This document shows, piece after piece, positions 3,289 to 52,743 of a stretch of DNA of 64,000 nt. This stretch comes from Rhodopseudomonas sp. AAP120 (GTDB taxonomy: Bacteria > Pseudomonadota > Alphaproteobacteria > Rhizobiales > Xanthobacteraceae). Made by a program: the position numbers and the translations under genes. The notes under the pieces were generated by a model. The model was not told the origin of the DNA, did not search any database, and saw nothing but the letters and a program-made list of their open reading frames with translations. How positions within the stretch are numbered: the stretch's first letter is position 1; each line of letters opens with the position of its first letter. The DNA lies in the NCBI RefSeq assembly GCF_001295845.1, contig NZ_LJIC01000137.1, positions 1-64,000 on the forward strand, written 5' to 3'.

Positions 3289-3305
3289 GGCGCTTCGCCC
3301 CTCTC

Positions 3306-5984
3306 TCAGCGGGACCAAGGCGATGAAACGCCGGTCGGCAATTCATAGCGAGTGATCGCTTCGGCAACCTGCTGCCGCGTGACGTCGCCCGTTTTCGCCA
3401 GCGCCGACAGCGCCGCGACGACGATCTGCTTGCGGTCGACCTCGAAGAAGGCCCGCAGCGCGGCGCGCGTATCGCTGCGCCCGAAGCCGTCGGTGCCGAG
3501 CACCGTAAACGGCGCTTCGATGTAGGAGCCGATCAGTTGCGGATAGCCGCGGACATAATCCGACGCCGCGACGATCGGCGTGCTGCCGCCGAGGCACTTT
3601 GCGACGTGGCTTTCGACCTGGTCTGACAGCGGCGCGAGCCGGTTGGTTCGCTCGACCTCGCGCGCGTCCCGCGCCAACTCGGAATAGCTGGTTGCCGACC
3701 AGACTTCGCTCGACACATTCCATTCGCTGAGCAGCATCGCCGCAGCGGCCATCACCTCCGGCAGAATGGCGCCCGAGCCGACCAGCCGTATTCTTGCCGG
3801 TCCGTCCGCACTGGGCAGAACCCGATAGAGTCCCTTGATGATGCCCGGTTCCGCATCGGCGGGTATCGAGGGCTGCGCGTAGTTCTCGTTCATCACCGTG
3901 AGGTAGTAAAACTCGTCGTTGCCCTGCTCGAGCATCGACCGCATGCCGTGGTCGACGATGACGGCCACCTCGTAGGAGAACGCCGGATCGTAAGCGCGGC
4001 AGTTCGGAACGGTCGCCGCCATCAAATGGCTGGAGCCGTCCTGATGCTGCAAGCCCTCGCCGCCGAGCGTCGTCCGGCCGGCCGTCGCTCCGATCAGAAA
4101 GCCGCGCGCGCGTTGATCCGCCGCCGCCCAGATCAGATCTCCGACCCGCTGGAAGCCGAACATCGAGTAGTAGATATAGAACGGCAATAGCGGGAAATTA
4201 TGGGTGCTGTAGGACGTCGCCGCCGCGGTCCAGGATGAAATCGCCCCGGCCTCGGTGATGCCTTCCTCCAGCAGCTGACCGTCGATCGCCTCCTTGTAGT
4301 ACAGCATGGAGCCGGCATCCTCCGGCTCGTAGAGCTGGCCTGCCGGCGAGTAGATGCCGACCTGCCGGAACAGATTGGCCATGCCGAAGGTGCGGGCTTC
4401 ATCGGCGACGATCGGAACGATGCGCGGGCCGAGCGTCTTGTCTTTCAGCAGATTGGTGAACAGCCGCACGATCGCCATCGTGGTCGATGTCTCCTTGCCG
4501 TCGCCGCGCAGCGCGAACTCGCCATAGGATGGCAGCGGCGGCACCGGAAGCGTCTCCGAGTTGCGTCGCCGCGCCGGCATGTAGCCGCCGAGCGCCGCGC
4601 GGCGGCCGCGCAGATACTGAATTTCCGCGCTGTCCTCCGCCGGCCTGAAGAACTCCAGATTCTCGACCTGGTCGTTGCTGAGCGGAAGGGCGAACCGATC
4701 GCGGAACGCATACAGCGCGTCAACGTCGAGCTTCTTGGCCTGGTGCGACGTCATGCGCGACTCGCCGGCGCCGCCCATGCCGTAGCCCTTCTTGGTCTTC
4801 GCCAGAATGACCGTCGGCCGGCCCTTGGTGTCCTTGGCGGCCGAGAAGGCTGCGAACAGCTTCTTGAAGTCGTGACCGCCGCGCTTCAGGCCGTCGATAT
4901 CCGCGTCCGACATGTGCGCGACCAGCGCCCGAACTTCAGGGTCCTCGCTGAAGAAATTGGCGAGGTTGTAGGCCCCGTCCTTGGCGCCGAGCGTCTGATA
5001 TTTGCCGTCGACGGTCTCGGCGAATTTGCGCAGCAGCGCGTGCTTGCTGTCGCGGGCGAAGATATCGTCCCAGTCCGATCCCCACAGCACCTTGATGACA
5101 TTCCAGCCTGCCCCTTGGAACAGCGATTCCAATTCCTGGATCACCTGGCCGTTGCCGCGGACCGGTCCATCAAGGCGCTGCAGGTTGCAATTGACGATGA
5201 AGGTGAGGTTGTCGAGATTTTCGCGCGCCGCCAGTGCGAGCCCGGCGATCGACTCCGGCTCGTCCATCTCGCCATCGCCGAACACACCCCAGACGTGGCG
5301 ACCAGCGGTCTGCACCAGACCGCGATGCTGCAGATACTTCATGAACCGCGCCTGGTAGATCGCACTGATCGGCCCGAGGCCCATTGACGCACAAGGCACC
5401 TGCCAAAATTCCGGCATCAGCCAGGGATGCGGATAGGACGACAGCCCGGGGCCGCTCAGTTCCTGCCGATACAGCTTCAGGTTCTCGTCCGTCAGCCGAC
5501 CTTCGAGAAACGCGCGCGCGTAGACTCCGGGCGACGAGTGTGGCTGGAAATACACCAGGTCGCCTTCGGACTCCGGGCTCGCCGCGCGGAAGAAATGATT
5601 GAAGCCGACCTCAAAAATCTCCGCGGCGGAGGCGTAGCTGGCGACATGGCCGCCGAGTTCGCCATAGGCCTTGTTGGCACGCACCACCATCGCCAGCGCA
5701 TTCCAGCGAATCATCGCCGTCAGCCGGGTTTCGATCGCGATATCTCCGGGATAGGGCTGCTGCCGCTCAAGCGGAATCGAATTGCGATAAGGCGAATACG
5801 GCGGAGCATCCGGCAGCACGCCGAGTTCCTTCGCACGCCGATCGAGCGCAGCCAGAATGTATCGCACGCGTTCGGCGCCTGCGCTGTGGTGGAGCGAGCC
5901 AAGCGAGGCCAGCCAATCGGCGGTTTCGATCGCGTCTTGATCGGCGTTGATGGCTTTGCGCGGTGGATCGATGTGAACAGTCAT
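3306..5984 (-). CDS. aceE: Pyruvate dehydrogenase E1, homodimeric type
   Basis: The protein is 892 residues, close to the roughly 890 of homodimeric E1, and does the thiamine diphosphate-dependent decarboxylation of pyruvate. The ThDP motif is visible as GDGEMDEPES followed by NLTFIVNCNLQRLDGP. The open frame extends 98 codons further upstream. The ATG at 5984 (protein start MTVHIDPPRK) is chosen because the upstream part is not E1-like and GGGAG lies 7 bases before the ATG. It is the first gene of aceE-aceF-lpdA, divergent from an AraC-type regulator. Many alphaproteobacteria use the heterodimeric PdhA/PdhB E1 instead, so this type is worth noting. Confidence 0.94.
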   Translation of the reverse strand: MTVHIDPPRKAINADQDAIETADWLASLGSLHHSAGAERVRYILAALDRRAKELGVLPDAPPYSPYRNSIPLERQQPYPGDIAIETRLTAMIRWNALAMVVRANKAYGELGGHVASYASAAEIFEVGFNHFFRAASPESEGDLVYFQPHSSPGVYARAFLEGRLTDENLKLYRQELSGPGLSSYPHPWLMPEFWQVPCASMGLGPISAIYQARFMKYLQHRGLVQTAGRHVWGVFGDGEMDEPESIAGLALAARENLDNLTFIVNCNLQRLDGPVRGNGQVIQELESLFQGAGWNVIKVLWGSDWDDIFARDSKHALLRKFAETVDGKYQTLGAKDGAYNLANFFSEDPEVRALVAHMSDADIDGLKRGGHDFKKLFAAFSAAKDTKGRPTVILAKTKKGYGMGGAGESRMTSHQAKKLDVDALYAFRDRFALPLSNDQVENLEFFRPAEDSAEIQYLRGRRAALGGYMPARRRNSETLPVPPLPSYGEFALRGDGKETSTTMAIVRLFTNLLKDKTLGPRIVPIVADEARTFGMANLFRQVGIYSPAGQLYEPEDAGSMLYYKEAIDGQLLEEGITEAGAISSWTAAATSYSTHNFPLLPFYIYYSMFGFQRVGDLIWAAADQRARGFLIGATAGRTTLGGEGLQHQDGSSHLMAATVPNCRAYDPAFSYEVAVIVDHGMRSMLEQGNDEFYYLTVMNENYAQPSIPADAEPGIIKGLYRVLPSADGPARIRLVGSGAILPEVMAAAAMLLSEWNVSSEVWSATSYSELARDAREVERTNRLAPLSDQVESHVAKCLGGSTPIVAASDYVRGYPQLIGSYIEAPFTVLGTDGFGRSDTRAALRAFFEVDRKQIVVAALSALAKTGDVTRQQVAEAITRYELPTGVSSPWSR

Positions 5985-39391: not shown

Positions 39392-40003
39392 TCACTCACC
39401 CCCGCCCGCAGCCGGGCTCGTAAACCCATAAAGGAAAAGATCCACGATGGTGTCGGCAAACTCGGTCGGGCTTAGTCCACGGGCCGGATCGAACCACGTG
39501 TGGCTGAAGTTGAGAATGCCAAACAGCATCATCGTGTAAACGGTTTTTGTCCGCTTCGCGATCTTGCGCTGCTTGTCCAATCGGATCAGAAGCTCCGAAA
39601 TGATATCGACGATCTGTCGCTCCAACGATTTGATCGACGTCTGCTCGGCTTCGCTGAGAAACGCCATATCGTTGAGGATCAGCCGCTGCTCGTTGGGCGA
39701 ACGGGCATTGAGTTCGACGATCGCGCGGATCGCGGCGCGAAACTGAGCGAGCGTATCCGTCTCGGCTGCGATCGCATCCTCGACATCCGCGATCATGCGC
39801 CGCACATGGGCATCCAGGATCGCGAACAGGATCGCTTCCTTGGATTGGAAGTAGTGATAGAGAGCTCCGCGGGACAGCCGGCAGGCGTCCGCGAGTTCGG
39901 CGATCGACGCCCGCATATAACTCTGGCGGGCGAATAGTTCGCAAGCGACGGTCAGAATTCCGTTCTGGATGTCGTCGTAATTTTCTGAGCGGGTGCGCGC
40001 CAT
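39392..40003 (-). CDS. TetR-family transcriptional regulator
   Basis: The protein is 203 residues. HTH in ASIAELADACRLSRGALYHY followed by FQSKEAIL. It is a paralogue of the TetR at 45199 (shared RTRSENYDD-like start and a FGILNFSHTWFDP-like end). It lies between the meta-cleavage operon and the second island. An inverted repeat directly upstream (40018-40040) could be its own operator. Confidence 0.9.
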   Translation of the reverse strand: MARTRSENYDDIQNGILTVACELFARQSYMRASIAELADACRLSRGALYHYFQSKEAILFAILDAHVRRMIADVEDAIAAETDTLAQFRAAIRAIVELNARSPNEQRLILNDMAFLSEAEQTSIKSLERQIVDIISELLIRLDKQRKIAKRTKTVYTMMLFGILNFSHTWFDPARGLSPTEFADTIVDLFLYGFTSPAAGGGE

Positions 40004-40017
40004 TCCAGCCTTTCGGG

Positions 40018-40040
40018 CCGTCCGACGGCGAGTCGGACGG
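40018..40040. promoter_or_regulatory. Inverted repeat upstream of TetR gene
   Basis: CCGTCCGAC (40018-40026) and GTCGGACGG (40032-40040) form a perfect 9-bp inverted repeat, 15 bases upstream of the TetR start. Its half-sites contain TCCGAC/GTCGGA, like the operators of the neighbouring island, but with wider spacing. It may be an autoregulatory operator or a leader hairpin. Confidence 0.45.
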
Positions 40041-40195: not shown

Positions 40196-41380
40196 TCACC
40201 GGCCGCGGAAATCAGGACGTCGCTTGTTGGCGAACGCCACCACTCCCTCCCGCGCGTCATCGGTTCGCGCGGCGAGGACGATGGACTCGCATTCGTCGCC
40301 GAGTTGCTCCCTCAGACTGGTTTCGTGGGATTGGCGAAGCAGACGGCGCATCGCGCCATACGCCTTGGTCGGCCCGGCGGCGAGCTTCTTGGCGAGACCG
40401 AAGACTTCGCTTTCCACTTCGCCATCAGCCACGACCCGGCTGACGATGCCATAAGCGAGCGCTTCGTCGGCGGTCAGACGGCGGTTCAGCAGGAAGAGCT
40501 CTTGCGCCCGGCGCATGCCGACCATCCGGGGCAGAAACCAGGTGTTGCCACCGTCCGACGTCAGCCCCAGCGCCGCATAGCCGAGCGCGAACCGGGCATC
40601 ATGGGCTGCGACCACGATGTCGGCGGCATAGAGAAGGCCTAAGCCTCCCCCTGCGGCAGCGCCCCGAACGGCTGCGATGACAGGCGCATCGAAGCTCGTC
40701 AACCTCTCGATCGCCAGATGATATGCATCGATCATCGAGCGCAAACGTCCGGGCAATCGATCGGGCTCGGTGCCGGCGAACAACGCCACATCCCCGCCCA
40801 CGGTGAAATTCGCCCCTGCCCCCGCCATGACGATGGCGCGAACCCCGCTCGCATCGGCGATCGTCTTCACGGCCGCGTTCAAGTCCGACGCCATCGCTTC
40901 GTTGATGGCGTTGCCCTGATCCGGGCGGTTCAACCGAAGCGTGGCGATGCCTTCGACAATGTCGAGCTGCACTGCGCTCGACGCTCCGGCTGCATCGCGC
41001 CAACGCGCCGTGTCGGTGTATTGCCGAAGCGCGCGGATCTGCTCGCCGTCGAACGTCAAGATATGCGCGAACGCAGCGTCGAGCGGCCCGCCGCTTCTCC
41101 CGCGTCCGCGGTAACGACCAGTCACCAACAATCCGTCGGCGCCGATCTCGCGGAAGCTGTCCGGCTCGGCGCGGGCTTCGAAATGCCGGGCGATTCCGCC
41201 CCAACCATTCCGACGCATCGCAGCCGCGCCATCGTGCGTGCCGCCGATGTCGAACGGCATGCCCTCGGCGATTTCTCCGACGAATTCCGGATGCAGAAGC
41301 TGATCGAGCTGCTGACGGTCTCCGCGAGACAGCGCGTCGTACAACGAGCGCGCGAGATCCGCACGAGTTCTGACTTGCAT
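40196..41380 (-). CDS. SnoaL-like domain fused to enoyl-CoA hydratase/isomerase
   Basis: The protein is 394 residues. Residues 1 to about 130 resemble a SnoaL/NTF2-like domain (ARSLYDALSRGDRQQLDQLL, then LHPEFVGEI, ITHIL-like strands). Residues from about 137 form a crotonase with GAGANFTVGGDVALF and RGAAAGGGLGLLYAADIV. LGLTSDGGNTWFLP has the Asp seen in PaaG-type isomerases. Such a fusion is unusual: the NTF2-like part might isomerise or dehydrate, or bind the partner substrate. It follows the CoA ligase gene, 78 bases downstream. Confidence 0.85.
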   Translation of the reverse strand: MQVRTRADLARSLYDALSRGDRQQLDQLLHPEFVGEIAEGMPFDIGGTHDGAAAMRRNGWGGIARHFEARAEPDSFREIGADGLLVTGRYRGRGRSGGPLDAAFAHILTFDGEQIRALRQYTDTARWRDAAGASSAVQLDIVEGIATLRLNRPDQGNAINEAMASDLNAAVKTIADASGVRAIVMAGAGANFTVGGDVALFAGTEPDRLPGRLRSMIDAYHLAIERLTSFDAPVIAAVRGAAAGGGLGLLYAADIVVAAHDARFALGYAALGLTSDGGNTWFLPRMVGMRRAQELFLLNRRLTADEALAYGIVSRVVADGEVESEVFGLAKKLAAGPTKAYGAMRRLLRQSHETSLREQLGDECESIVLAARTDDAREGVVAFANKRRPDFRGR

Positions 41381-41427
41381 GGACGGCCTCTCTCCACGGG
41401 GCGAATGCGGTGAGCTTTGTTATAGTG

Positions 41428-41451
41428 GGAGGGCCGGTGCGACGGCCCTCC
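41428..41451 (-). terminator. Hairpin between CoA ligase and fusion gene
   Basis: GGAGGGCCG and CGGCCCTCC form a perfect 9-bp stem with a 6-base loop. It lies just after the CoA ligase stop and before the SnoaL-crotonase start on the minus strand. Without a T-run it may weaken rather than stop transcription. Confidence 0.4.
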
Positions 41452-41458
41452 GGCGCGA

Positions 41459-43024
41459 TCACCCTACGGCGCGATCGCGTCCCTCCCAGTACGGGCCGCG
41501 CAGCTCGTGCTTCAGCAGCTTGCCGGCCGCCGACGTCGGCAAGGCGTCGCGGAATTCGACGCTCACCGGACATTTGTAACCGGCGATGTATTGGCGGCAA
41601 TGCTCGCGCAATTCTGCCGACGTCGCCTCGGCACCCACTCGCAGAACGACGACGGCATGCACCTGCTCGCCCCACCGCGCGCTGGGAATGCCTATCACGG
41701 CGCAACTCGCGATCGCCGGATGACGCGCCAGCGCATTCTCCACCTCGGCGGAATAGACGTTCTCACCGCCGGAGACGATCATGTCCTTGAGGCGATCCAC
41801 GATGAACAGATATCCTTCGTCGTCGACGTAGCCCATGTCGCCGGACCGCAGCCAGCCGTTGCGAAAGGCGTCGTTAGTTTCCCGCTCGCGATTCCAATAG
41901 CCGATCATCACGCCGATGCCGCGGGCGACGATCTCTCCCACCGTTCCCACCTCGGCCTCGACGCCGTCCATGCCCTGAATTTGCATCTCGATGCCCCACG
42001 CCGGGCGTCCGGCGGAGCGCAGCCGCGCCTTGTCGGCGGCGTTGTGCGAGCGATGACAATGTGGCGGCAGCACCGTGTACGGCCCTCCGGTCTCCGTCAT
42101 GCCGTAGCCCTGATAGAAGTCGACGTGAGGCAGCGCCTGCAGAAGTCGACCGAGCAGTTCCTCATTAATCGGGGAAGCGCCGTAAACGATCTTGCGCAGG
42201 CTGCCGAGGTCGAACTCGCCGAACCCCGGATGTTCGATCAGACGCTGCAGCATGGTCGGCACAAGCAGCGTGAAGGTGACGCGTTCCTTCGCCATGGCAC
42301 GCAGCACGACTGAGGGCTCGAACGCCTCCACGTAAACGGTCCTGCACCCGCGCACCAATGCCCGGATGAGGATGCACATGCCGGCCTGGTGAAAGATCGG
42401 CGCGACCGCGAGCACGACCTCATCTGACGCGTAGGCGACGTCCAGCAGATTGCAGATCGCGTTCCCCAGAAGTGCGTTGTGACTCAGCATCACGCCCTTC
42501 GGAAACCCGGTGGTGCCGCCGGTGTAGAACACGCCCGCGAGATCATCGCCTCCCCGCCGCGCATCTTCGGCCGGCTGCGCGGCGCGCATCAGCTGTTCGG
42601 CGTGCAGCACGCCGTCGGGAGCCTCACCGTCGCCGACATAAACGATCGTCCGCAGCGATCGGCTCAGCGTACGAAGATCGTTGCACCACGACAGGAAGTG
42701 ATCATCGACCAGCAGGATATGGGTGTCGCAATCGTCCAGAGAGAACGCGACCTCGGCCGCGCTCCATCGCGTATTCGCCGGATTGAGGGCGCCGCCACCC
42801 CACCAGACGCCGAGCATGTATTCGAGATAATGGTCGGAATTCAGCGCCAGCATCCCGACGCGATCGTCTTTCGCCATGCCGATCTGCTGCAGCACCGCGG
42901 CGAGACGCGCGGTGCGGTCCGCGAGCTCTCGCCAGGTTCGGCGCCGATCGCCGAAGGTCGTCGCCACCGCGTCAGGTGCCGACCGCATCTGGCGATGGAG
43001 TCCATCGGTCAAATTGAGCTTCAT
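41459..43024 (-). CDS. AMP-forming acyl-CoA ligase
   Basis: The protein is 521 residues with FYTGGTTGFPKG at about 167-178, GYGMTETGGPY, DRLKDMIVSGGENVYSAEVE and SAAGKLLKHELR. It belongs to the FadD3/feruloyl- or medium-chain type of CoA ligases. The ATG at 43024 has GGAGG 8 bases upstream; a start nine codons earlier is less likely. Its promoter carries a palindrome shared with four other promoters of the island (43116-43133). Confidence 0.9.
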   Translation of the reverse strand: MKLNLTDGLHRQMRSAPDAVATTFGDRRRTWRELADRTARLAAVLQQIGMAKDDRVGMLALNSDHYLEYMLGVWWGGGALNPANTRWSAAEVAFSLDDCDTHILLVDDHFLSWCNDLRTLSRSLRTIVYVGDGEAPDGVLHAEQLMRAAQPAEDARRGGDDLAGVFYTGGTTGFPKGVMLSHNALLGNAICNLLDVAYASDEVVLAVAPIFHQAGMCILIRALVRGCRTVYVEAFEPSVVLRAMAKERVTFTLLVPTMLQRLIEHPGFGEFDLGSLRKIVYGASPINEELLGRLLQALPHVDFYQGYGMTETGGPYTVLPPHCHRSHNAADKARLRSAGRPAWGIEMQIQGMDGVEAEVGTVGEIVARGIGVMIGYWNRERETNDAFRNGWLRSGDMGYVDDEGYLFIVDRLKDMIVSGGENVYSAEVENALARHPAIASCAVIGIPSARWGEQVHAVVVLRVGAEATSAELREHCRQYIAGYKCPVSVEFRDALPTSAAGKLLKHELRGPYWEGRDRAVG

Positions 43025-43115: not shown

Positions 43116-43133
43116 AGACCGACGCGTCGGTCT
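43116..43133. promoter_or_regulatory. Island operator, site 1 (CoA ligase promoter)
   Basis: AGACCGACGCGTCGGTCT is a perfect 18-bp palindrome about 100 bases upstream of the CoA ligase start, flanked by TTTAT-like sequence. It is the best example of the motif also found at 45105, 45968, 51235 and 52497. TetR-family operator is the likely identity. Confidence 0.7.
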
Positions 43134-43264
43134 TTATCTTGCGCCGCGATGTCCGCCGGGTCGGCGAACGCCGCTGCTTATCAATGTAGCCTTCCCGTCA
43201 CATCGGACCGCGCAGGGATATCGCCCTCCTGCCGCGCAACGACGGGAAAGATCGGGCCGTCCGA

Positions 43265-43822
43265 TCAGATCAGAAAGGAGATCGTGTAGATAGGCTTGTT
43301 GTTATTCACCAGCACGACCTTCTTGTAGACGATCTTGAGAGCGCCTTGCTGCCGACGGAGTCGGTAGCAGCAGCGCGCCGCCCACATCGTATCTCCACGC
43401 AGATTGGTCTCGAAGATCTGACTGTTGCAGGCGACGCCGATGTCCTGCCCCTCGGACTGCAACAATTCGACATTGCCGATGATGCGCGCGAGCTGCGATG
43501 GCGGGGTTTGCGAATGGCGGCGTCCCGTTTTCAACTGACGCACACGGAGCGCGATCCGGGATCGATTGTCGTAGATCAGCGACATCTGCCGTTCCGGGTC
43601 GGTGTCGGCGCCGTTGGCGGGCACCCAATACACCGCGTCGTCGGTCCACAGCGCCTCCCACGCATCGTATTCATGCGTGTCCTGCAGGCGCGCCTCGCGA
43701 TAGAGAAACTGGCTCACTTCATGATGGAGGTCGGCGTCGACCTCGGTGGCGTAGCTCAGATCCCGGCCCGTCCACTGCTTCAGGATATTGTCCGCAGGGC
43801 GTTCGCTCGTCTCGGCATCCAT
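43265..43822 (-). CDS. Ring-hydroxylating dioxygenase, beta subunit (second system)
   Basis: The protein is 185 residues with the small-subunit pattern: HHEVSQFLYREARLQDTHEY, DAWEALWTDDAVYWVPANG and ARIIGNVELL. The start overlaps the alpha-subunit stop by one base (TGATG). It is distinct from the beta subunit at 35051. No further oxygenase components follow. Confidence 0.91.
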   Translation of the reverse strand: MDAETSERPADNILKQWTGRDLSYATEVDADLHHEVSQFLYREARLQDTHEYDAWEALWTDDAVYWVPANGADTDPERQMSLIYDNRSRIALRVRQLKTGRRHSQTPPSQLARIIGNVELLQSEGQDIGVACNSQIFETNLRGDTMWAARCCYRLRRQQGALKIVYKKVVLVNNNKPIYTISFLI

Positions 43823-45078
43823 CAGCAGGCCTCCATCAGTGCGCGGTAGTGCTTCCAGATCTCCCGCGACGGAAGATCGTCGGTCGAATGCCCAATGAGG
43901 AAGCCGTCCTCGTCGCGCCGTTCTCGATGCTCGCCGCGCTTCAAATAGAGATACTCCGGCGCGCGAATTTCGAGCCCCCGTTGGTTTCGCTCGTACATCT
44001 CGGTGTCGTCAGCGAGCAGGAAGCCGGCCGGCCCCACGGACCCCATCGTCTGTTGCCTGAGTCGCCGGTTGATCTCCGGCGAGTCCTTGAATTGAATGGC
44101 GGTAACGTGCTGGATCGACTCGACTGCCGAGACCGGCTGAATGACGAAGATCTGAATTTCGGCGATGAACAGATTGGGAAAGATCATGACGTGCGGCATC
44201 CCGTCGATCATGATCTGCCGGGCGCGCTCATCGCCATAGGCCGACTGCATCTGCGCGGTGTATTCGGGCAGCTTGTCGGCCGTGGTCCCGAACCAGCTCA
44301 TCGGTTGATCGCGGCGGCGGAATTCCGGACGCGGGTCGACCTCGGTGTGACCGTTGCCGAGCGCACGCGTGACGGCGACGGCGTCGTTCCCATAAAGGCT
44401 GCCGATGGCGCTATCGGCGACCGAGAAGATCGAGGAGTGCACGAAGGCGGGGTGATAGCCGTCGCACTCATTCTCCAGGATGAACTTCCAATTGGCTCGC
44501 GCGCGATGCCGCAGGAAGCCGGCGCTGAGGTCCAGTTCGCTGGTCGGCGAATTTTCGCAGGCTTGATCGAGCGTTCGGCGTGCGCCGCCGAGATGCTCCT
44601 CGAGCGACGGCCCATCCTGCGCCATCGAAGCGAACACGAAGCCGCGATAACTCGCGACGCGCGGCACCTTCGCCAGACCAAGTCCTGACTTGTCCGTCCC
44701 GGCGTATCCTTCGGGGAAAGCGTAGTTCATCAACCTGCCGTCGTTCGCGAACGTCCAAGAGTGATACGGGCAGGTGAACGACTTGCGGTTTCCCTTGTCC
44801 TGCACGCAGACCGCGTTGCCGCGATGAGGGCAGCGATTGAGCAGCAGGTTGATCTCACCGTGCTGATTGCGGACCATCAGCACGGGCATCGGGCCGATCG
44901 ACTTGGTGACGAAATCGTTAGTGTTGGGCACCTCGCTTTCGTGCCCGACATAGACCCAGGTCTTGAACCAGATCTTCTCCAGCTCCTCCTTGAAGATCAC
45001 TTCGTCCGAATAGAGGGAGCCATGAACCATTCCTGGCCGAATGAGGGTTTCCCAAGGGCTGTGCAGACCACCGTCCAT
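43822..45078 (-). CDS. Rieske ring-hydroxylating dioxygenase, alpha subunit (second system)
   Basis: The protein is 418 residues. Rieske ligands C83, H85, C103, H106 (CPHRG, then CPYHSW). Mononuclear site ENECDGYHPAFVH with D206, H209 and H214. It differs clearly from the alpha subunit at 33749. No ferredoxin or reductase is encoded nearby, so it may use those of the first system. The operator-like site at 45105-45122 lies 35 bases upstream of its start, where a repressor would block the promoter. Confidence 0.93.
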   Translation of the reverse strand: MDGGLHSPWETLIRPGMVHGSLYSDEVIFKEELEKIWFKTWVYVGHESEVPNTNDFVTKSIGPMPVLMVRNQHGEINLLLNRCPHRGNAVCVQDKGNRKSFTCPYHSWTFANDGRLMNYAFPEGYAGTDKSGLGLAKVPRVASYRGFVFASMAQDGPSLEEHLGGARRTLDQACENSPTSELDLSAGFLRHRARANWKFILENECDGYHPAFVHSSIFSVADSAIGSLYGNDAVAVTRALGNGHTEVDPRPEFRRRDQPMSWFGTTADKLPEYTAQMQSAYGDERARQIMIDGMPHVMIFPNLFIAEIQIFVIQPVSAVESIQHVTAIQFKDSPEINRRLRQQTMGSVGPAGFLLADDTEMYERNQRGLEIRAPEYLYLKRGEHRERRDEDGFLIGHSTDDLPSREIWKHYRALMEAC

Positions 45079-45104
45079 CGGCGCTTCTCCCGTCGTCTCT
45101 TTAT

Positions 45105-45122
45105 AATCCGGACAGTCGGTCT
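45105..45122. promoter_or_regulatory. Island operator, site 2 (second dioxygenase promoter)
   Basis: AATCCGGACAGTCGGTCT has one perfect half-site (GTCGGTCT) and one weak one. It is embedded in a wider dyad with TTATA (45101-45105) and TATAA (45122-45126) arms. It lies 35 bases from the alpha-subunit start. Confidence 0.55.
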
Positions 45123-45198
45123 ATAAATAGAACGCAAACAATTGTCAATCGCTGAGACCACCGGGAGCGGACTTCTACGTGACAAACGTCAGCGGTTA

Positions 45199-45867
45199 TC
45201 AGCTTCGATCGAGTTTACGGGCGCGCGCCTTGCTGCCGCGAGCTGTTGAACCTTCACGCTCCCGCGACCGATCAGCCGGCCCCTCGGCCAGAACGCCGTC
45301 GAGATAGAGCCGTGCGATCCGATCACATAGTTCGCGAGGCTTCATCTTTCCTCCAGGCCGGAACCAGAGATCGGTCCAGTTCAGCATTCCGATCAGCAGC
45401 ATGGCATAGGGCGCATAGACTTCGTCGGGCATCCCAGGATTGACCGCACGTAGCAATCCGCTGAGCGTCCGCCTCACCTTCCGCTCCAGCTTAAGGACCT
45501 GCGCACGCTTCTCGGCGGGAAGGAACTTGGCATCGTTCATGGCGCTGACATGGCGTTGCCGCGATTGAGCGGACTTCGTCACGAACACGTCGATGAAGCG
45601 CTGAAGCTGGTCCTCCGGCGATTGGCTTTCACTGAGCGCTTGGTCGATGTCCGCCAGAAGACGTTCGAGATGATCGATCAGCAGCGCCAGCAGCAGGTCG
45701 TCCTTGGTCGGGAAGTAGTGATACAGCATCGACTTGGTCGCGCCGCACAGCTTGGCGACATCCTGCAGCTTGGCGCTCGGGTAGCCTACCTTCGCAAACA
45801 GAGTCGCGGCACTGTCGAGGATCGCTCGATATTTGTCGTCGTAATTGTCGGCTCGAACGCGTGGCAT
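45199..45867 (-). CDS. TetR-family regulator, candidate for the island operator
   Basis: The protein is 222 residues. HTH in AKLQDVAKLCGATKSMLYHY followed by FPTKDDLL; a basic C-terminal tail (ARGSKARARKLDRS). It is related to the TetR at 39392. An operator copy lies about 109 bases upstream of its start, in the divergent region shared with the MBL gene. This makes it the simplest candidate for binding all five copies; binding is inferred, not shown. Confidence 0.9.
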   Translation of the reverse strand: MPRVRADNYDDKYRAILDSAATLFAKVGYPSAKLQDVAKLCGATKSMLYHYFPTKDDLLLALLIDHLERLLADIDQALSESQSPEDQLQRFIDVFVTKSAQSRQRHVSAMNDAKFLPAEKRAQVLKLERKVRRTLSGLLRAVNPGMPDEVYAPYAMLLIGMLNWTDLWFRPGGKMKPRELCDRIARLYLDGVLAEGPADRSREREGSTARGSKARARKLDRS

Positions 45868-46175
45868 CTTGGTCCCCCAATATCGCGTTTGCCATCGCAG
45901 CGTCCGGCCTGGAGCCGACCATCTGAGGCATCGGTCAGCGCGCGCCAGCGGCTGAGCGCGTTGACATAAACCGTCTCGTCGGTCTTATAACTTGCCACAG
46001 ATCAAACATGCAGGTCATCTTGCGAGTGGACGCAACATTGCCCTGCCGACCGATCGGTGAACGAGCAAAGGCGGGTTCGATCAGGCCGAATTCTGATCAG
46101 TGCGACGCCGGCAGGACGGGCGACGACCGTCCGAACACCAGCCAAGCTTCGACCGACAATCGTGGAAGGACGATC
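45868..46175. promoter_or_regulatory. Divergent region between TetR and MBL genes
   Basis: The 308-base gap holds an island operator at 45968-45985 in a locally AT-rich stretch. An open frame runs into the MBL gene from 46008 but has no coding character before 46176. Nothing else was recognised. Confidence 0.55.
45968..45985. promoter_or_regulatory. Island operator, site 3 (TetR/MBL divergent promoter)
   Basis: AAACCGTCTCGTCGGTCT retains the GTCGGTCT half-site and an ACCG left half. It is flanked by ATAA and TTATAA. Position between two divergent genes suits autoregulation of the TetR gene plus control of the MBL gene. Confidence 0.55.
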
Positions 46176-47231
46176 ATGCAGCCCGAAACTGCGACGCCTG
46201 CGCCAGCCCGCTTGAACTTTCCCTTTCCTGAGCCACCGCGGTTCGGCGAGGTGACGGAGGTGCGTCCCGGCCTGCTCTGGCTGCGTCTGCCGCTGCCGTT
46301 TCAGCTCGATCACGTCAACATCTATCTCATTCAGGATACGGACGGCTGGGCCATCCTCGACACCGGCTTGTCGGAAGATGAAGCGCTCGCGGTTTGGGAC
46401 GGCTATTTCGACGGTCCGCTGGGTGGACTGAAGATCACGCGGATCGTGGTGACGCACCACCATCCCGACCACATCGGGCTCGCGGGATGGCTGTGCAAAC
46501 GCTTCAAGGCGCCGCTGCTGACCAGCCTGTCGAGCTACATGAGCTGCCGGATCATCTCCCTCGACCCCCAGGCCTTCGAGTCGCCGGCGAACCGGCTGTT
46601 CTACGAGAGCCACGGCATGGACGACGATGCGGCGCGGATCGTCAGTACCCAGGGTCACGAATACTTGCGGCAGGTCGGCCCCCTGCCCGACACGTTTCTG
46701 CGCCTGGTGATGGGCGATACGCTGACGCTCGGCGACAGAAATTTTCGCGTGCTCACCGGCGATGGTCATTCCGCCGAGCAGGTCATGCTTTACTGCGAGA
46801 AGGACCGGCTGCTGTTCGTGGCCGATCAGGTGCTCGAGCGGATTTCGCCGAATGTCGCCGTCTGGGCGGGTGAGCCGGACGGCGATCCGCTCGGGCATTT
46901 CCTACGCAGCCTCCGTTTGCTGGCGAGCCAGATCCCCAACGACGTGCTCGTGCTTCCCGGGCACCGGCGGCCGTTCTACGGCCTTCATGAACGTACGCAG
47001 GAGTTGGTGCAGCATCACGAGACTCGCTGCCGTGTGCTCGCGAATGCCTGCGAGACCGGCGCCCATTCGGTCGCGGAGCTCGTTCCACTGCTGTTCAGCC
47101 GTCCGCTCGATCCGCACCAAATGGGGTTCGCCTTCGCCGAAACGCTCGCACACGCCAATCGGCTAGTGCGCCAAGGGATCCTCGACGTCGTCTCGCGACA
47201 CGATCGCTACGCCTTTACTGCAAGGCGCTGA
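46176..47231 (+). CDS. Metallo-beta-lactamase-fold hydrolase
   Basis: The protein is 351 residues. The metal motif is THHHPDHIGLAG (H94, H96, D98, H99), with a later His in GDGHSAEQ, Asp in FVADQVLE and His in LPGHRRPF. Family members hydrolyse thioesters, lactones and other esters; a CoA thioesterase or lactonase role would suit the island. The ATG at 46176 follows GGAAGGA. The 3' end overlaps the convergent FAD gene by 17 bases. Confidence 0.89.
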   Translation: MQPETATPAPARLNFPFPEPPRFGEVTEVRPGLLWLRLPLPFQLDHVNIYLIQDTDGWAILDTGLSEDEALAVWDGYFDGPLGGLKITRIVVTHHHPDHIGLAGWLCKRFKAPLLTSLSSYMSCRIISLDPQAFESPANRLFYESHGMDDDAARIVSTQGHEYLRQVGPLPDTFLRLVMGDTLTLGDRNFRVLTGDGHSAEQVMLYCEKDRLLFVADQVLERISPNVAVWAGEPDGDPLGHFLRSLRLLASQIPNDVLVLPGHRRPFYGLHERTQELVQHHETRCRVLANACETGAHSVAELVPLLFSRPLDPHQMGFAFAETLAHANRLVRQGILDVVSRHDRYAFTARR

Positions 47232-48561
47232 CGGCCTCGTCTCGAGGATGAGCGTGGCCGGCGGCGAGTAAGGCCAGCGCCTTGTTAGCAGCCTCGCGCC
47301 CGGTGAAGGCACAGGCCTGTGTCCCGCCGTCGCCATAGTCTTTCACGGCGTCGCCGACATGCCAAAGATTGGCGAGCGGCGTCTCTTGCGGCATGTCGAA
47401 GCCCGCGCAGGAGCGCTGCGCCGGCCAGTCGCCCTTCATGACGCGAACCGACAGCATCTTGGCCCCGGCGAATGCCGGAAACAATTCGCGAAGATCCGCC
47501 AGCGACGCCTCGATCTCGGCCTCTTCGTCGAACTCGCCGATCGCCGGCCGCGGCACGGCGTAAGCGACGTACTGATACCAGCCGGCGGGAGCGAGCTCGG
47601 GGCAAGTCGCGGTCAGCTCCCCCATGTTGCACAGCCGCCGGGTTTTGCCGAATGTCACCAAGCCGGGCACATCGAGAAGCCGTTCGCGTGTTGCGAAGTT
47701 GATGACGATGTTCGCAGCCGGCTTGGGAAGCACCTTGGCCTGCTGGAGATAGGCCTCTCCCATCGCCTCTGCGCCAGGGAGAGATGCCGTCGCTGCCGGG
47801 CCGATATTGCTGATCACCACCGAAGGCACAACCGTCACGGAGGAGCCGGCGTGGTCGATCGTCACCGCGACGATGCGGCCGCCGCGAACGTCGAGGCCGG
47901 TCACGGTCGCTTGCGTCCAGACCTGGCCGCCGCGGCCGCGGATCCCCTCGGCCAAATCGTTCCACAATCCGACGGTCCCGCGCGGGCAGAAGCCGAACCG
48001 CTTGAAGGCGCCTTTGACTGCGAAGTAAGTGAGAAATGCGCGCGCCGGCAGTTCGTCCGCGTTGACGGCGAAGATGGCTGCGCAAAGATTGCGGAAGATC
48101 GCATGCACGGTGGCGTTGGTGGTGTATTGCTCGAGCCATTGCTTCGTCGTCAGCTTGGCCTCGGGAAGGTCGCCGGCGCGGGCATCGGAGAATTTCGCCC
48201 CGATCTTCGCAGCCTGCTTGGTGAATGTACCCAGCAACATGCCCCAACCGCCTTTGGCGACGTTGATGACCTTGCCGTCGATGAAGAATACGGTGGCGGG
48301 GTTGGGTTCGCGAATGTCCAGCGGAACGCCGAGCAAGTCGAACGTTTCCTCGAAGACCCCACCGCGTTCGATCGCGATCGCGCCGACATTGACGATGTGG
48401 CCGTCGATGACTTCGCTGGAGGCGCGGCCGCCCAGGCGGTCCAGACGTTCGGCGACCAGCACGGACTTGCCGGCCGCGACCAGACGCGCTGCAGCCGTGA
48501 GGCCGCCGGCGCCGGCACCGATCACGAGAGCATCGACATGCAAGGCTGATGTATCAGTCAA
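47215..48561 (-). CDS. Phytoene desaturase-like FAD-dependent oxidoreductase
   Basis: The protein is 448 residues. It has an FAD-binding GAGAGGLTAAARLVAAGK, a following LDRLGGRAS and a C-terminal FAD contact in LWHVGDAVKDYGDGGTQACA. This is the layout of the amine oxidase/phytoene desaturase superfamily. A TTG at 48561 with AGGAGG 5 bases upstream appears to be the start; the frame has no suitable ATG. It could oxidise or desaturate a pathway intermediate. Substrate unknown. Confidence 0.85.
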   Translation of the reverse strand: MTDTSALHVDALVIGAGAGGLTAAARLVAAGKSVLVAERLDRLGGRASSEVIDGHIVNVGAIAIERGGVFEETFDLLGVPLDIREPNPATVFFIDGKVINVAKGGWGMLLGTFTKQAAKIGAKFSDARAGDLPEAKLTTKQWLEQYTTNATVHAIFRNLCAAIFAVNADELPARAFLTYFAVKGAFKRFGFCPRGTVGLWNDLAEGIRGRGGQVWTQATVTGLDVRGGRIVAVTIDHAGSSVTVVPSVVISNIGPAATASLPGAEAMGEAYLQQAKVLPKPAANIVINFATRERLLDVPGLVTFGKTRRLCNMGELTATCPELAPAGWYQYVAYAVPRPAIGEFDEEAEIEASLADLRELFPAFAGAKMLSVRVMKGDWPAQRSCAGFDMPQETPLANLWHVGDAVKDYGDGGTQACAFTGREAANKALALLAAGHAHPRDEAVSALQ

Positions 48562-48660
48562 GTAAGCCTCCTGGCTGTAGTGGCCACACGGGTCAGGTCC
48601 AAATGCTCGGCGACGTCGGGCCCTTCGATGCCTGCCACGCGCCAAGATGCCGCCCGTCCA

Positions 48661-49587
48661 TCACTCGGTCTTCGCTGCCGGAGCGAGATGACGGGCGATG
48701 AAGTGTCCGCCGGCAGCGATGGCCTCGTGCGCCTGAGGCAGATCGCCCGCGAATTGTTGAAACACGTGAATCATCCCGGGCCAGATTTCGAATTGCACGG
48801 GCGCTCCCTCGGCTTGCGCGCGCATCGCGAAATCGACGGTGTCGCTGACCAGCGTTTCGCGTTCGCCGACCTGAAGCAGCATCGGCGGCAATCTGCCGAA
48901 CAGATCGCGCGGAGCGTGCAGCGGCGACCATCGCGGATCGTCGGCTGCGCGATCCGCTCCCAGCGCCCCCTGCGCCATCGCCAGAATGAGATGGCGCTGG
49001 TGAATCGGATCGAGCTCGGAGCGCTCGGTGTAGCTGGCGCCCGACGCGGTCAGGTCGGTCCAGGCCGACATCAGATATGCGGCCGCCGGGCTTGGCTTCC
49101 CGTCTTTCAGCCGCGACAGCATCGCCGAAATCGCAAGACCGCCGCCTGCGGAATCACCCGCGACAGCCGTGCATTCCGGAGCAATGCCGATCTGCTCCAA
49201 CCAATCCAGCACCGCCACGGCGTCGTCGATCGCCGCAGGCAGCGGATGCTCCGGCGCCAGCCGATAATCGACGCCCAGCACCTGCACGCCGGCCGCCGTC
49301 GCCAGCCGCGCCATCAGGTCGCGATGCGACGCCACGGAGCCGACACGATAGCCCCCGCCGTGCAGATAGATGATCACGGCGTCTCTTCGCGTGCCGGCAG
49401 GCCTGATCCAGTGACAAGGAACAGGGCATGCGGCGACCGGTTCGACCTCCGCATCGACCTCAACGTCGAACAGAGCGTCCCAGTCGGCGCGCATTTGCGA
49501 CACCGGCGTATCGCGTCGCCACCGCGAGTACACCGCGCGGACTCTGGCGACCACAGTATCGATCGGGTCTTGCGTCACGCGCCGCAC
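48661..49587 (-). CDS. Alpha/beta hydrolase, hormone-sensitive lipase type
   Basis: The protein is 308 residues. HGGGYRVGS supplies the oxyanion hole, GDSAGGG the nucleophile serine, and HVFQQF the His. Such esterases hydrolyse short acyl esters or lactones. The likely start is GTG at 49587, overlapping the SDR stop by 13 bases; a GTG at 49578 is also possible. It is cotranscribed with the SDR and crotonase upstream. Confidence 0.88.
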   Translation of the reverse strand: MRRVTQDPIDTVVARVRAVYSRWRRDTPVSQMRADWDALFDVEVDAEVEPVAACPVPCHWIRPAGTRRDAVIIYLHGGGYRVGSVASHRDLMARLATAAGVQVLGVDYRLAPEHPLPAAIDDAVAVLDWLEQIGIAPECTAVAGDSAGGGLAISAMLSRLKDGKPSPAAAYLMSAWTDLTASGASYTERSELDPIHQRHLILAMAQGALGADRAADDPRWSPLHAPRDLFGRLPPMLLQVGERETLVSDTVDFAMRAQAEGAPVQFEIWPGMIHVFQQFAGDLPQAHEAIAAGGHFIARHLAPAAKTE

Positions 49588-50309
49588 CCCATGCCGCCTG
49601 ACACGCCGAGAGCTTCGCCCGTGATGTAGCCAGCCTCCTCGGAGGCGAGGAATGCGATGGTGGCCGCGACCTCATCGGAGGATCCGAGGCGGCCCAGCAA
49701 CGTCGCCGAGGTCATCGCCGCCATCAGTTTGTCGCCGCCATCGGAAACCGCGCGCCGAAGCATCGGCGTATCGATCGGGCCGGGCGCGATGACATTGGCC
49801 GTCACGCCCATGCCGCCGCTTTCGCGCGCGATCGATCGCGTGAACGCGATGACGCCGCCCTTGGCCGCCGCGTAAACGGCGCCACCGCGCGAACCAAGGC
49901 GGCCGGCTTCGGAGGCGACGTTGACGATGCGGCCATAGCCGCGCTGCTGCATCGCCGGCAGCAGCACGTGCGTCGTGTTGAGTACGGAGATGAGGTTGAT
50001 GGCGATCAGCCGCGCCCAATCCGATGGGGCGGTTCGGGTGAAGAAGGCGTGCTGATCGACGCCCGCGCTGTTGACCAGAATATCGAACGGCTCGCGGGCC
50101 GCGATCGCCTGGCTCACCGCATCATAGTTCGTCAGGTCGGCCGCGACGAAGGACGCGCCGATCTGCTCGGCCACGCCTTCACCGCGACTCCGATCAAGAT
50201 CGGCTATCGTCACGTCGATGCCCTGCGCCGCCAGGCGCGACGCCGCAGCAGCGCCGATACCACTAGCGCCGCCGGCCACGAGTGCGCGTCGCTTGCTCCG
50301 CCCGGTCAT
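49575..50309 (-). CDS. Short-chain dehydrogenase/reductase
   Basis: The protein is 244 residues with GGASGIGAAAASRLA, ILVNSAGVDQ, NVASEAG and YAAAKGG. Classical SDR of FabG/3-hydroxyacyl-CoA dehydrogenase size. It starts 3 bases after the crotonase stop, suggesting successive hydration and oxidation of an enoyl-CoA. Not closely similar to the SDRs at 25199 or 35545. Confidence 0.9.
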   Translation of the reverse strand: MTGRSKRRALVAGGASGIGAAAASRLAAQGIDVTIADLDRSRGEGVAEQIGASFVAADLTNYDAVSQAIAAREPFDILVNSAGVDQHAFFTRTAPSDWARLIAINLISVLNTTHVLLPAMQQRGYGRIVNVASEAGRLGSRGGAVYAAAKGGVIAFTRSIARESGGMGVTANVIAPGPIDTPMLRRAVSDGGDKLMAAMTSATLLGRLGSSDEVAATIAFLASEEAGYITGEALGVSGGMGCGA

Positions 50310-50312
50310 CGA

Positions 50313-51149
50313 TTAGCGTCCGGTGAATTTCGGACTGCGCTTCTCGATCACGGCCGCGAGGCCCTCGCGCGCGTCGGCCATACCGGACAAAATTTCCTGC
50401 GCGTGGTTCTCCTCCGGCATGGCGGCTTCGACGCCCTCGCCCAAGCCGTTCCAGAGCAGCCGCTTGGTATTCGCCAGCGCCGCCGGCGCCCCGGCAGCCA
50501 AGGTGCGCGCCAGGGTCCATGCCTGGTCGAGGAGTTCGGCGTCCGGCACGACGCGCGTGATCAGGCCGATGTCGCGCGCCTGCGGCGCGTCGATGATCGG
50601 ATTGAGCATTAGGATTTCCGTGGCGCGGCGAAGTCCAACGAGCTGGGTGAGCGTCACCGTGACCCCGGCGTCCGGAACCATTGCGACCCGGGTAGCTCCG
50701 GCAATGAATTTGGCGCTCTCACCGGCGACGACGAAGTCGGACGCGCACACGAGCCCCATGCCTCCACCGCCCGCGGCATATCCCTGCACGGCAGTCACGA
50801 CCGGGGCTTTCAGGCGGATCAAACTACTTGCGACCATGCCGAGATAAGCGGTGGCCACGCGGATATAGGCGGGCAACTCCGTGCCCTTGGCGAGGAAGGT
50901 GTGCACGTCGCCGCCCGCGCAGAAATTGCTGCCCGCTCCTGTCAGCAGAACGACGCGGACGCGATCGTCGCCATGGAGCAGCATGATTGTTTGGTGAAGC
51001 GCGGTGAGAAGCTCGACATTCAGCCCGTTAGCGGCTTCGGGCCGATTCAGCCGGACGTGAGCGACGCCATCGGGATGAAGCTCCGCCGTGACCGGCCCAG
51101 AGGCGACCAGCAGCAACGAGGCGCCCGTCGTCGTTTGTTCGGTCTGCAT
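50313..51149 (-). CDS. Enoyl-CoA hydratase/isomerase family protein
   Basis: The protein is 278 residues. Motifs GAGSNFCAGGDVHTF and VQGYAAGGGGMGLVCASDFV; MVPDAGVTVTLTQLVG has the Asp of PaaG-type isomerases rather than the second catalytic Glu. ATG 51149 has GGAGGA 5 bases upstream. It heads the crotonase-SDR-esterase transcript, with an island operator about 94 bases upstream. Confidence 0.89.
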   Translation of the reverse strand: MQTEQTTTGASLLLVASGPVTAELHPDGVAHVRLNRPEAANGLNVELLTALHQTIMLLHGDDRVRVVLLTGAGSNFCAGGDVHTFLAKGTELPAYIRVATAYLGMVASSLIRLKAPVVTAVQGYAAGGGGMGLVCASDFVVAGESAKFIAGATRVAMVPDAGVTVTLTQLVGLRRATEILMLNPIIDAPQARDIGLITRVVPDAELLDQAWTLARTLAAGAPAALANTKRLLWNGLGEGVEAAMPEENHAQEILSGMADAREGLAAVIEKRSPKFTGR

Positions 51150-51234
51150 GGGCTTCCTCCCGTTCACGCTTGTCGCCACTCTTTGGAGTGATCGTCGCCA
51201 AGGGCGGTGATGCCCAAGCCGTCCTTCAATAAAT

Positions 51235-51252
51235 AGTCCGACTAGTCGGATT
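51235..51252. promoter_or_regulatory. Island operator, site 4 (crotonase operon promoter)
   Basis: AGTCCGACTAGTCGGATT contains a perfect 14-bp palindrome (TCCGACTAGTCGGA) and is flanked by AAAT and TTATG. It lies in the gap between the acyl-CoA dehydrogenase and crotonase genes, about 94 bases from the crotonase start. Confidence 0.6.
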
Positions 51253-51306
51253 ATGTCAAATGCGCGCTGCTGTGCTCCGCCGCTTGCCGGCGACGTCTTG
51301 CGAGCG

Positions 51307-52461
51307 TCACATCCGCTTGGCGACCTCTTCGAGCATGACCTCGGTCGCGCCACCGCCGATCGTCAAAATCCGCGCGTCCCGGACCATGCGTTCGATCGGA
51401 GTTCCGGACATGTAGCCGATGCCGCCATGGAGCTGCAGGCAGGTGTGCACCACTTCCTGCAGTGTCTCGCCCGCCAGCGCCTTCAGCATCGAGACCTCGC
51501 GGACGACGTCCTGCCCCTCGTCGATCATCGTCGCGCATTGATAGGTCAACGCGCGGACGGCGGCGGCTTTCGCCGCCACCCACGCCATCTTGTTGCGCAC
51601 CACGGGCTGATCCCACAGCGATTTCCCGAAAGCCTTGCGCTGACGCAGATAGTCGAGCGTGAGCTGGATGGCTTTTGCACATGCGCCGGAGACGAGCCCT
51701 CCGATCACCAGACGCTCGTTCTGGAATGTGCCCATGATGTAGTAGAAGCCGCGCCCCTCTTCGCCCAGCAGCGCATCCTCGGGCACGAACATGTCCTGAA
51801 AGAACAGCTCTGCGGTGTCGGAGCTGAGCCAGCCGTGCTTGCGCAGCTTTCCGGACACGGACAATCCCGGCGTGCCGCGCTCGACGACGAACAGCGAGAT
51901 GCCCCGCGCGCCGCCTGCATCCGGATCGGTCCGGGCAGCGACGATGTAGATGTCGCCGAGAACACCGTTGGTGATGAAGGTCTTGGACCCGTTGATCACC
52001 CATCCACCATCGACCCGCGTCGCGCGTGTCTTGAGCCCAGCAACGTCGGAGCCGGCGTGCGGCTCGGTGACGCAAATGACGCCGACCTTTTCTCCCGCGC
52101 AGGCCGGCGGCAGGTAGCGGGCTTTCTGTTGCTCGTTGCCACGATGCGCGATGTGCGAGATCGACATGTCGGAATGCACCGTCAGTGCGCTCGCGACACC
52201 GCCGAATGACGAGCGGGACAGCTCCTCGGCGAGGATCACGGACGACAACGCGCCTAGTCCGCCACCGCCGTAATCCGTCGGATGTCGCATCCCGAGAAAG
52301 CCGAGTGCGCCCATCTCGCGAAAGATCTCCCGCGGAATTTCGCCAGCTTCTTCCCATGACAGCCCCGCCGGCGATATGCGCTCGTCCACGTACCTGCGGA
52401 GCTGAGCCCTGAGGAGCGTCAGATCTGCTTCCGGTAGAGCGGGTTCGGCGAATTCGAACAT
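51307..52461 (-). CDS. Acyl-CoA dehydrogenase family protein
   Basis: The protein is 384 residues. CVTEPHAGSDVAGLKTRA, NGSKTFITNG and QLHGGIGYMSGTPIERMVRD are family signatures for FAD and substrate binding. The usual catalytic glutamates are not obvious: the C-terminal site reads TIGGGATEVM instead of IYEGT, and the alternative site reads RKAFG instead of REAFG. ATG 52461 follows GGGAGG at 7 bases. An island operator lies 44 bases upstream. Confidence 0.9.
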   Translation of the reverse strand: MFEFAEPALPEADLTLLRAQLRRYVDERISPAGLSWEEAGEIPREIFREMGALGFLGMRHPTDYGGGGLGALSSVILAEELSRSSFGGVASALTVHSDMSISHIAHRGNEQQKARYLPPACAGEKVGVICVTEPHAGSDVAGLKTRATRVDGGWVINGSKTFITNGVLGDIYIVAARTDPDAGGARGISLFVVERGTPGLSVSGKLRKHGWLSSDTAELFFQDMFVPEDALLGEEGRGFYYIMGTFQNERLVIGGLVSGACAKAIQLTLDYLRQRKAFGKSLWDQPVVRNKMAWVAAKAAAVRALTYQCATMIDEGQDVVREVSMLKALAGETLQEVVHTCLQLHGGIGYMSGTPIERMVRDARILTIGGGATEVMLEEVAKRM

Positions 52462-52496
52462 CGTGCGGCCTCCCATGCGACATCGATCTAATTAAT

Positions 52497-52514
52497 AGAC
52501 CGACGGGTCGGTTT
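52497..52514. promoter_or_regulatory. Island operator, site 5 (acyl-CoA dehydrogenase promoter)
   Basis: AGACCGACGGGTCGGTTT differs from site 1 at two positions and is flanked by TAAT and ATAT. Its centre is 44 bases from the start of the acyl-CoA dehydrogenase gene. Confidence 0.65.
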
Positions 52515-52743
52515 ATATTTTAGACGGACGTGCCGCGCAATCAATATCGACGCCCGGCAGAACACGTCCGCAGGAGCCGAGCCGGACCGCTGGAATTAGC
52601 TCGCTTGTTTCAGATCGTCGTCGCGAGTTGCAGGCCGGCGGAGACGGACAATCCGTCGAGGTGCAGATCCGGGCCAAAACAGCACCGGAGTGGCTTTGCT
52701 CGGTCGCGACTGGCAGGCTTTAATTGTCCCAAGAGCGTAGACT

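Follow-up and report, generated by a model that had tools for sequence, protein, structure and literature searches.

Five near-identical palindromes in the stretch of Rhodopseudomonas sp. AAP120 DNA analysed here (contig NZ_LJIC01000137.1, positions 1–64,000; the whole 64,000 nucleotides are termed the window) are very likely the operators of a TetR-family regulator encoded at 45199–45867, termed TetR2, which would repress six transcription units and be released by a coenzyme A (CoA) thioester of their pathway. The sites themselves, their exclusivity in the genome, and their conservation with TetR2 were directly seen. As a preceding sequence-only reading had proposed, one palindromic operator with A+T-rich flanks recurs at five promoters, and all of its centres (approximately 43124, 45113, 45976, 51243, and 52505) were borne out; the 20 bases around each core were 60–90% A+T, whereas the G+C content of the window is 64%. 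The sites are listed with their scores from the matrix described below.

43116–43133, unstranded: operator 1, AGACCGACGCGTCGGTCT, 26.7 bits, before the CoA ligase-crotonase operon
45105–45122, unstranded: operator 2, AATCCGGACAGTCGGTCT, 22.3 bits, before the Rieske dioxygenase alpha/beta genes
45968–45985, unstranded: operator 3, AAACCGTCTCGTCGGTCT, 21.7 bits, between the divergent TetR2 and metallo-beta-lactamase-fold (MBL) hydrolase genes
51235–51252, unstranded: operator 4, AGTCCGACTAGTCGGATT, 33.1 bits, before the crotonase-short-chain dehydrogenase/reductase (SDR)-esterase-flavin adenine dinucleotide (FAD) oxidoreductase operon
52497–52514, unstranded: operator 5, AGACCGACGGGTCGGTTT, 33.6 bits, before the acyl-CoA dehydrogenase gene

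The core of operator 1 is a perfect palindrome, and this operator occupies the equivalent position in two congeners. The operators lie approximately 30–110 bp from the likely starts of the six units; operator 3 is approximately 110 bp from the TetR2 start, i.e. a palindromic operator at the regulator's own promoter, and approximately 200 bp from the MBL start if that gene begins at 46177. By eye, operator 2 is overlapped by a TATAGA −10 element (45125–45120), operator 3 lies inside the spacer of the MBL promoter (TTGACA-N18-TTATAA), and operator 4 inside that of TTGACA-N18-TATTTA. Adjoining operator 5, a weak second operator-like stretch (52519–52542, 6.5 bits) was noted, which may be chance.

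The 18-base pattern AGACCGACNNGTCGGTCT, allowing at most three mismatches, matched five times in the window against 0.37 expected, and none of 100 shuffles reached five. Operator 2 has four mismatches to this pattern and was thus missed, and a match at 52158 was taken as chance, being inside the acyl-CoA dehydrogenase gene. Without its flanks the pattern was weak genome-wide, with 124 matches at the same threshold versus 96 in the reversed control. The strict pattern WWANWCCG-N6-CGGWNTWW (WWANWCCGNNNNNNCGGWNTWW) matched the 6,157,888-base genome in five places, all of them the claimed sites, versus one for its reversed control; allowing one mismatch added seven matches versus nine in the control, i.e. 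noise. The operator is therefore not spread over many unrelated promoters of the genome, and the proposal that other islands hold no copy stood. A looser pattern lacking the A+T flanks was discarded as uninformative because it matched 262 of 299 genomes.

Because the strict pattern had been derived from these very sites, a more independent test was made with a matrix from other genera. A consensus-free search for the best palindrome before each TetR2 gene was dropped, as none met the threshold of 10/12 pairs and no training set resulted; dyad counting was used instead, with trinucleotide pairs counted over the 300 bp upstream of TetR2 orthologues at 21 loci outside Rhodopseudomonas. The dyads ATA-N16-TAT and CCG-N11-TAT were found in 15 and 17 of the 21 upstreams, where 0.49 and 1.39 were expected, respectively. 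A 24-bp matrix was then trained on 16 of 19 upstreams (two from Bradyrhizobium left out, two rejected for insufficiently A+T-rich flanks, one without a match), with training sites chosen by CCG-N6-CGG with A+T flanks. This matrix, built from sites of other genera, ranked the five operators first to fifth among all window positions (33.6, 33.1, 26.7, 22.3, and 21.7 bits); the sixth-best position reached 10.1 bits, and 17.2 bits was the maximum over 100 simulated windows.

We examined 24 loci with TetR2 orthologues (53–88% identity) from Rhodopseudomonas, Bradyrhizobium, Erythrobacter, and Burkholderiales. The operator, with at most four mismatches and at most 300 bp upstream of TetR2, was present in 19 of the 24, where approximately two were expected from a background of 87 matches in 979 other equal-length stretches of the same loci. 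By the matrix, 20 of the 24 upstreams reached 16 bits, 16 of them being training sites. We then tallied sites of at least 16 bits over these loci, two longer islands (extensions of two of the loci, so that some sites count twice), and one plasmid locus, crediting divergent sites to both genes. The tally gave 68 sites: 23 before TetR2, 20 before an acyl-CoA dehydrogenase, 15 before an ATP-binding cassette (ABC) transporter, seven before a dioxygenase alpha gene, four each before a CoA ligase and a ferredoxin, three each before MBL and a second TetR termed TetR2b, and two each before a ferredoxin reductase and a transport gene. The ferredoxin reductase resembles HcaD/AndAa (below cut-off), which belong to Rieske oxygenase electron chains. 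No gene was assigned to 12 of the 68, among them two instances of the crotonase site, which an over-long frame had hidden, and five sites of a Janthinobacterium locus. In a tree of 89 rows, TetR2 and TetR2b join at 98/90, and the operator-bearing clade holds TetR2 and excludes the paralogue TetR1 (39392–40003); the tree contains several long branches, and the TetR1 group is among those flagged.

Two loci are described in their own right. In the Janthinobacterium locus (L039, 5171–13612), six operator sites were found, one before TetR2 and five near the starts of electron-transfer flavoprotein (ETF), thiolase/FadB, and flavin oxidoreductase frames; the content of the regulon has thus shifted there. 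On plasmid 3 of Variovorax sp. SRS16, a dioxygenase-crotonase-SDR-esterase operon carries a 26.8-bit operator together with a TetR2b-type gene, and the regulon is thus plasmid-borne there.

The sites and TetR2 also occurred together across genomes. Of the 16 genomes examined from the genus, TetR2 is present in G000, G007, and G015, each of which has five strict sites at matching promoters; the other 13 have none, except for one genome with a single site. This comparison was abandoned as a means of separating TetR1 from TetR2, because both genes occur in the same three genomes. The 22 genomes reached via TetR2 loci (two of which repeat places of G007 and G015; L018 and L023 were left out) have at least two strict sites each, 108 in total versus four in the control. 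Among 101 genomes around that of the window, a TetR2 orthologue (over 40% identity, most of the length) was found only in G000, G007, and G015, and some other members of the family or order have two to six strict matches, with controls up to five.

Across 299 Caenimonas-family genomes, with at most nine candidates scored per genome, TetR2-clade genes (at least 42% identity) were detected in six. At least three strict sites were present in five of these six versus 0 of the 293 others, and at least two in all six versus three of 293; as the genomes are related, the Fisher P values (3e-10 and 9e-11, respectively) are only a guide. When the three genomes known beforehand were removed, the count was 3/3 versus 0/293. 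One of the six, G258, carries a TetR2b-type gene (43%) as its sole member of the clade, which makes it probable that TetR2b recognises the operator of TetR2. The idea of a single TetR regulon is thus supported by the shared operator before orthologous TetRs and equivalent enzyme genes in distant bacteria, and by this co-occurrence. With the operator upstream of TetR2 in most orthologue loci and TetR2 inside the operator-bearing clade, TetR2, the candidate favoured by the sequence-only reading, is very probably the regulator of the five sites, and it is probably autoregulated.

Several points weigh against this assignment. The strict pattern was derived from the window's own sites and its five matches there arise by construction, so its weight rests on its absence elsewhere and its matches in other genomes; several training sites of the matrix are near copies of one another. 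In a consensus promoter scan, promoters were no more numerous than in shuffles, for which reason the −35 and −10 positions were assigned by eye. Three loci (L024, L033, and L037) are without a good site before TetR2, with sites before other pathway genes present; L023 ends before the TetR2 upstream, and L039 has its TetR2 site by the matrix only. G087, a member of the order with no orthologue (best TetR2 match approximately 27%), has six strict matches, four of which are AAATTCCGAC-NN-GTCGGAATTT, an identical core with AAATT flanks; the core alone is therefore not diagnostic. In the fold list for TetR2, QacR chains scored almost as high as acyl-CoA binders. Finally, G031 carries a TetR1 orthologue (64%) that is transcribed divergently from a pathway-type FAD oxidoreductase gene (61%), with a degenerate operator-like site of 15.8 bits in between; this arrangement spans 2472–4583 of locus L146 on contig C8.

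Separately, on contigs C8, C12, C60, C61, and C55 of G087, AAATTCCGACTCGTCGGAATTT was found four times along with one variant, a further repeated palindrome that shares the operator core.

The G031 arrangement bears on the paralogue, which had been named as the alternative regulator and whose region is as follows.

39392–40003, minus strand: TetR1, paralogue of TetR2 (32% to TetR2)
40018–40040, unstranded: separate palindrome before TetR1, half-sites CCGAC with a 5-bp spacer

That TetR1 is the main regulator instead of TetR2, or that both bind the same operators, is unlikely. Its gene adjoins the ligase-crotonase operon and accompanies TetR2 in three genomes of the genus, but its promoter lacks the operator (best score −11.2 bits) and carries another element, the perfect palindrome CCGTCCGAC-N5-GTCGGACGG. 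TetR1 differs from TetR2 in its recognition helix and is placed in another supported group of the tree; no orthologue of it was found in 22 loci outside Rhodopseudomonas, each of at most approximately 17 kb, whole genomes not having been searched for TetR1. G031 itself, with a TetR1 orthologue and without TetR2, has no strict sites. On the other side, the dioxygenase region of a Sulfitobacter plasmid contains a TetR1-like gene (42%), and the TetR relatives at L081 and L093, which join the TetR1 group in the tree, have TATAGACCG-type elements nearby. Together with the G031 site, these suggest that TetR1 may recognise a related element. The TetR1 palindrome is kept in two congeners (with one mismatch in one), is absent before the G031 orthologue, and recurs in the window no more often than chance would allow (12 matches with three or fewer mismatches versus 8.3 expected). 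A one-mismatch operator site elsewhere in G031 (contig C5, 17.4 bits) had no pathway context that we could see, and no window protein matched there.

A far less probable reading is that the sites belong to phenylacetate control and are read by the strain's own PaaR-type regulator. PaaR is the TetR repressor of phenylacetate degradation in B. cenocepacia (BCAL0210), and its operator core, as given in excerpts of PMC2770484, is ACCGACCGGTCGGT. With a variable centre, ACCGAC-NN-GTCGGT, this appears to be the core of the window operators too, and the sites at 52499 and 43118 are one and two bases from ACCGACCGGTCGGT, respectively. However, the PaaR-like paralogue of this genome, located on contig C87 beside paaA (TIGR02156), is preceded by TTGACCAATTGGACGGTCAA and not by the ATAG-flanked form, and strict sites are absent from 12 of the 13 congeners that lack TetR2. 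That the palindromes are RNA hairpins or terminators is very unlikely, since the terminator-like predictions at 43116, 52512, and 51250 belong to a set without clear excess (9 versus 6.3 in shuffles, standard deviation 2.7), and the sites lie upstream of genes, with half-sites and flanks that are conserved and tied to a TetR clade.

Under the control of TetR2, the regulon would comprise the genes below. They were assigned by Pfam and NCBIfam, with each start shifted to an ATG codon that has a good ribosome-binding site; operon membership was taken from gene order and spacing.

40196–41380, minus strand: SnoaL-like/crotonase fusion with the SnoaL-like domain N-terminal (Pfam SnoaL_2 and ECH_1), probably co-transcribed with the ligase
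41459–43024, minus strand: AMP-forming acyl-CoA ligase (Pfam AMP-binding; start by ribosome-binding site)
43265–43822, minus strand: Rieske dioxygenase beta subunit (Pfam Ring_hydroxyl_B)
43822–45078, minus strand: Rieske dioxygenase alpha subunit (Pfam Rieske and Ring_hydroxyl_A)
45199–45867, minus strand: TetR2 (TetR_N and TetR_C_24; the TetR_N helix-turn-helix domain scores above the Pfam cut-off)
46008–47231, plus strand: MBL hydrolase (Pfam Lactamase_B; alternative ATG at approximately 46177)
47215–48645, minus strand: FAD oxidoreductase of the amine oxidase/phytoene desaturase type (Pfam Amino_oxidase; CrtD/CrtI-type NCBIfam below cut-off)
48661–49587, minus strand: esterase of the hormone-sensitive-lipase type (Pfam Abhydrolase_3)
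49575–50309, minus strand: SDR dehydrogenase (nearest NCBIfam model BadH, below cut-off)
50313–51149, minus strand: crotonase (Pfam ECH_1; start probably at approximately 51149)
51307–52461, minus strand: acyl-CoA dehydrogenase (Pfam Acyl-CoA_dh domains; start probably at approximately 52461)

The sites had been said to precede named genes, a gene pair, or an operon at five promoters. The five promoters stood, but operator 3 lies between two divergent genes and the operon at 51243 has the FAD oxidoreductase as a fourth gene. Hence, five sites serve six transcription units of approximately 11 genes: CoA ligase-crotonase (40196–43024), Rieske dioxygenase alpha-beta (43265–45078), TetR2 (45199–45867), MBL hydrolase (46008–47231), crotonase-SDR-esterase-FAD oxidoreductase (47215–51149), and acyl-CoA dehydrogenase (51307–52461).

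We infer binding, repression, and the class of effector as follows. A TetR2 dimer or pair of dimers on ATARWCCGACNNGTCGGWYTAT would cover the −10 element or the −35/−10 spacer of the promoters of the six units, its own included, and would block RNA polymerase by promoter occlusion. Acyl-CoA-binding TetRs are among the nearest folds to TetR2, and the effector may be a CoA thioester, probably the product of the regulon's own CoA ligase, which would bind TetR2 and release it from DNA. The ligase, Rieske dioxygenase, acyl-CoA dehydrogenase, crotonases, SDR, esterase, FAD oxidoreductase, and MBL hydrolase would consequently be induced together.

As for the chemistry of the pathway, the dioxygenase alpha subunit has 81% identity to a Sulfitobacter plasmid copy, 65% to a Variovorax plasmid copy, and 42% over 97% of its length to the alpha subunit of the ibuprofen plasmid pIBU218. 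The SDR has BadH among its nearest NCBIfam models, the acyl-CoA dehydrogenase has acryloyl-CoA reductase and cyclohexane-1-carbonyl-CoA dehydrogenase, and the crotonase at 40196 has oxepin-CoA hydrolase/PaaG; every one of these matches scores below cut-off. Our guess is that an aryl- or alicyclic-carboxyl-CoA route fits.

The operator marks one pathway across a whole genome. In Rhodopseudomonas it ties together approximately 11 genes, and in Burkholderiales the set is extended by genes for ferredoxin, ferredoxin reductase, and uptake; this reduces the range of substrates to be considered and offers a ready inducer screen. We tentatively suggest that TetR2 and TetR2b form an undescribed PaaR-related subfamily, set apart mainly by its operator flanks (TTGACC versus ATAGACC), which may insulate it from PaaR in the same cell. 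Together with an uncharacterised Rieske-dioxygenase/CoA pathway, it may have been exchanged between alpha- and betaproteobacteria and, in some hosts such as Janthinobacterium, rewired to ETF, thiolase, and FadB genes.

In open-licence literature, no paper on a TetR2-type regulator was found; the matches listed for the operator letters look unrelated by title and start of abstract, and the regulator is not described in the available portions of a survey of paa regulators (PMC13186573) and a compendium of proteobacterial regulons (PMC5343134). The ipf ibuprofen cluster of pIBU218 contains CoA ligase and OB-fold genes; according to excerpts of PMC9195938, ipfA expression is independent of ibuprofen, and LysR and XylR/DmpR regulators are proposed for the lower pathway. 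It differs from the present system in that its locus, L157, has no site above 9 bits. MbdR of Azoarcus sp. CIB is the TetR repressor of an anaerobic aromatic pathway with the operator ATACN10GTAT. It resembles TetR2, as far as the excerpted text of PMC4424350 goes, in its CoA-dependent aromatic pathway, in having a CoA ligase promoter in its regulon, and in being induced by the first CoA thioester. However, its sequence similarity to TetR2 is weak (4uds, 33 bits), and by inspection its operator is absent from all five sites; 4uds is not among the 50 fold-list matches listed, which proves nothing.

The closest likeness is to PaaR, whose core the operator appears to have, a point beyond the earlier reading. 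In the window operators this core has a free centre and ATAG/CTAT flanks. Like PaaR, as portrayed in part of PMC2770484, TetR2 is a TetR-family protein whose predicted inverted repeat lies between −35 and −10 (here by eye), and which would serve several catabolic promoters of a CoA-dependent pathway with few other genomic sites. Unlike PaaR, TetR2 is not beside paa genes, its neighbours being ligase and dioxygenase genes; it would control a Rieske-dioxygenase/CoA island and belongs to a separate supported clade. The flanks also differ, being of the TTGACC...GGTCAA type before PaaR-like genes of relatives and ATAGACC...GGTCTAT or close forms in the TetR2 group. Given the similar core, the other flanks, and the PaaR-like paralogue at paaA, TetR2, as judged from these sequences, would work like PaaR but is not PaaR. 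The two regulators form a natural pair with an apparently common operator core and different flanks, which is useful for learning how TetR paralogues are insulated from each other.

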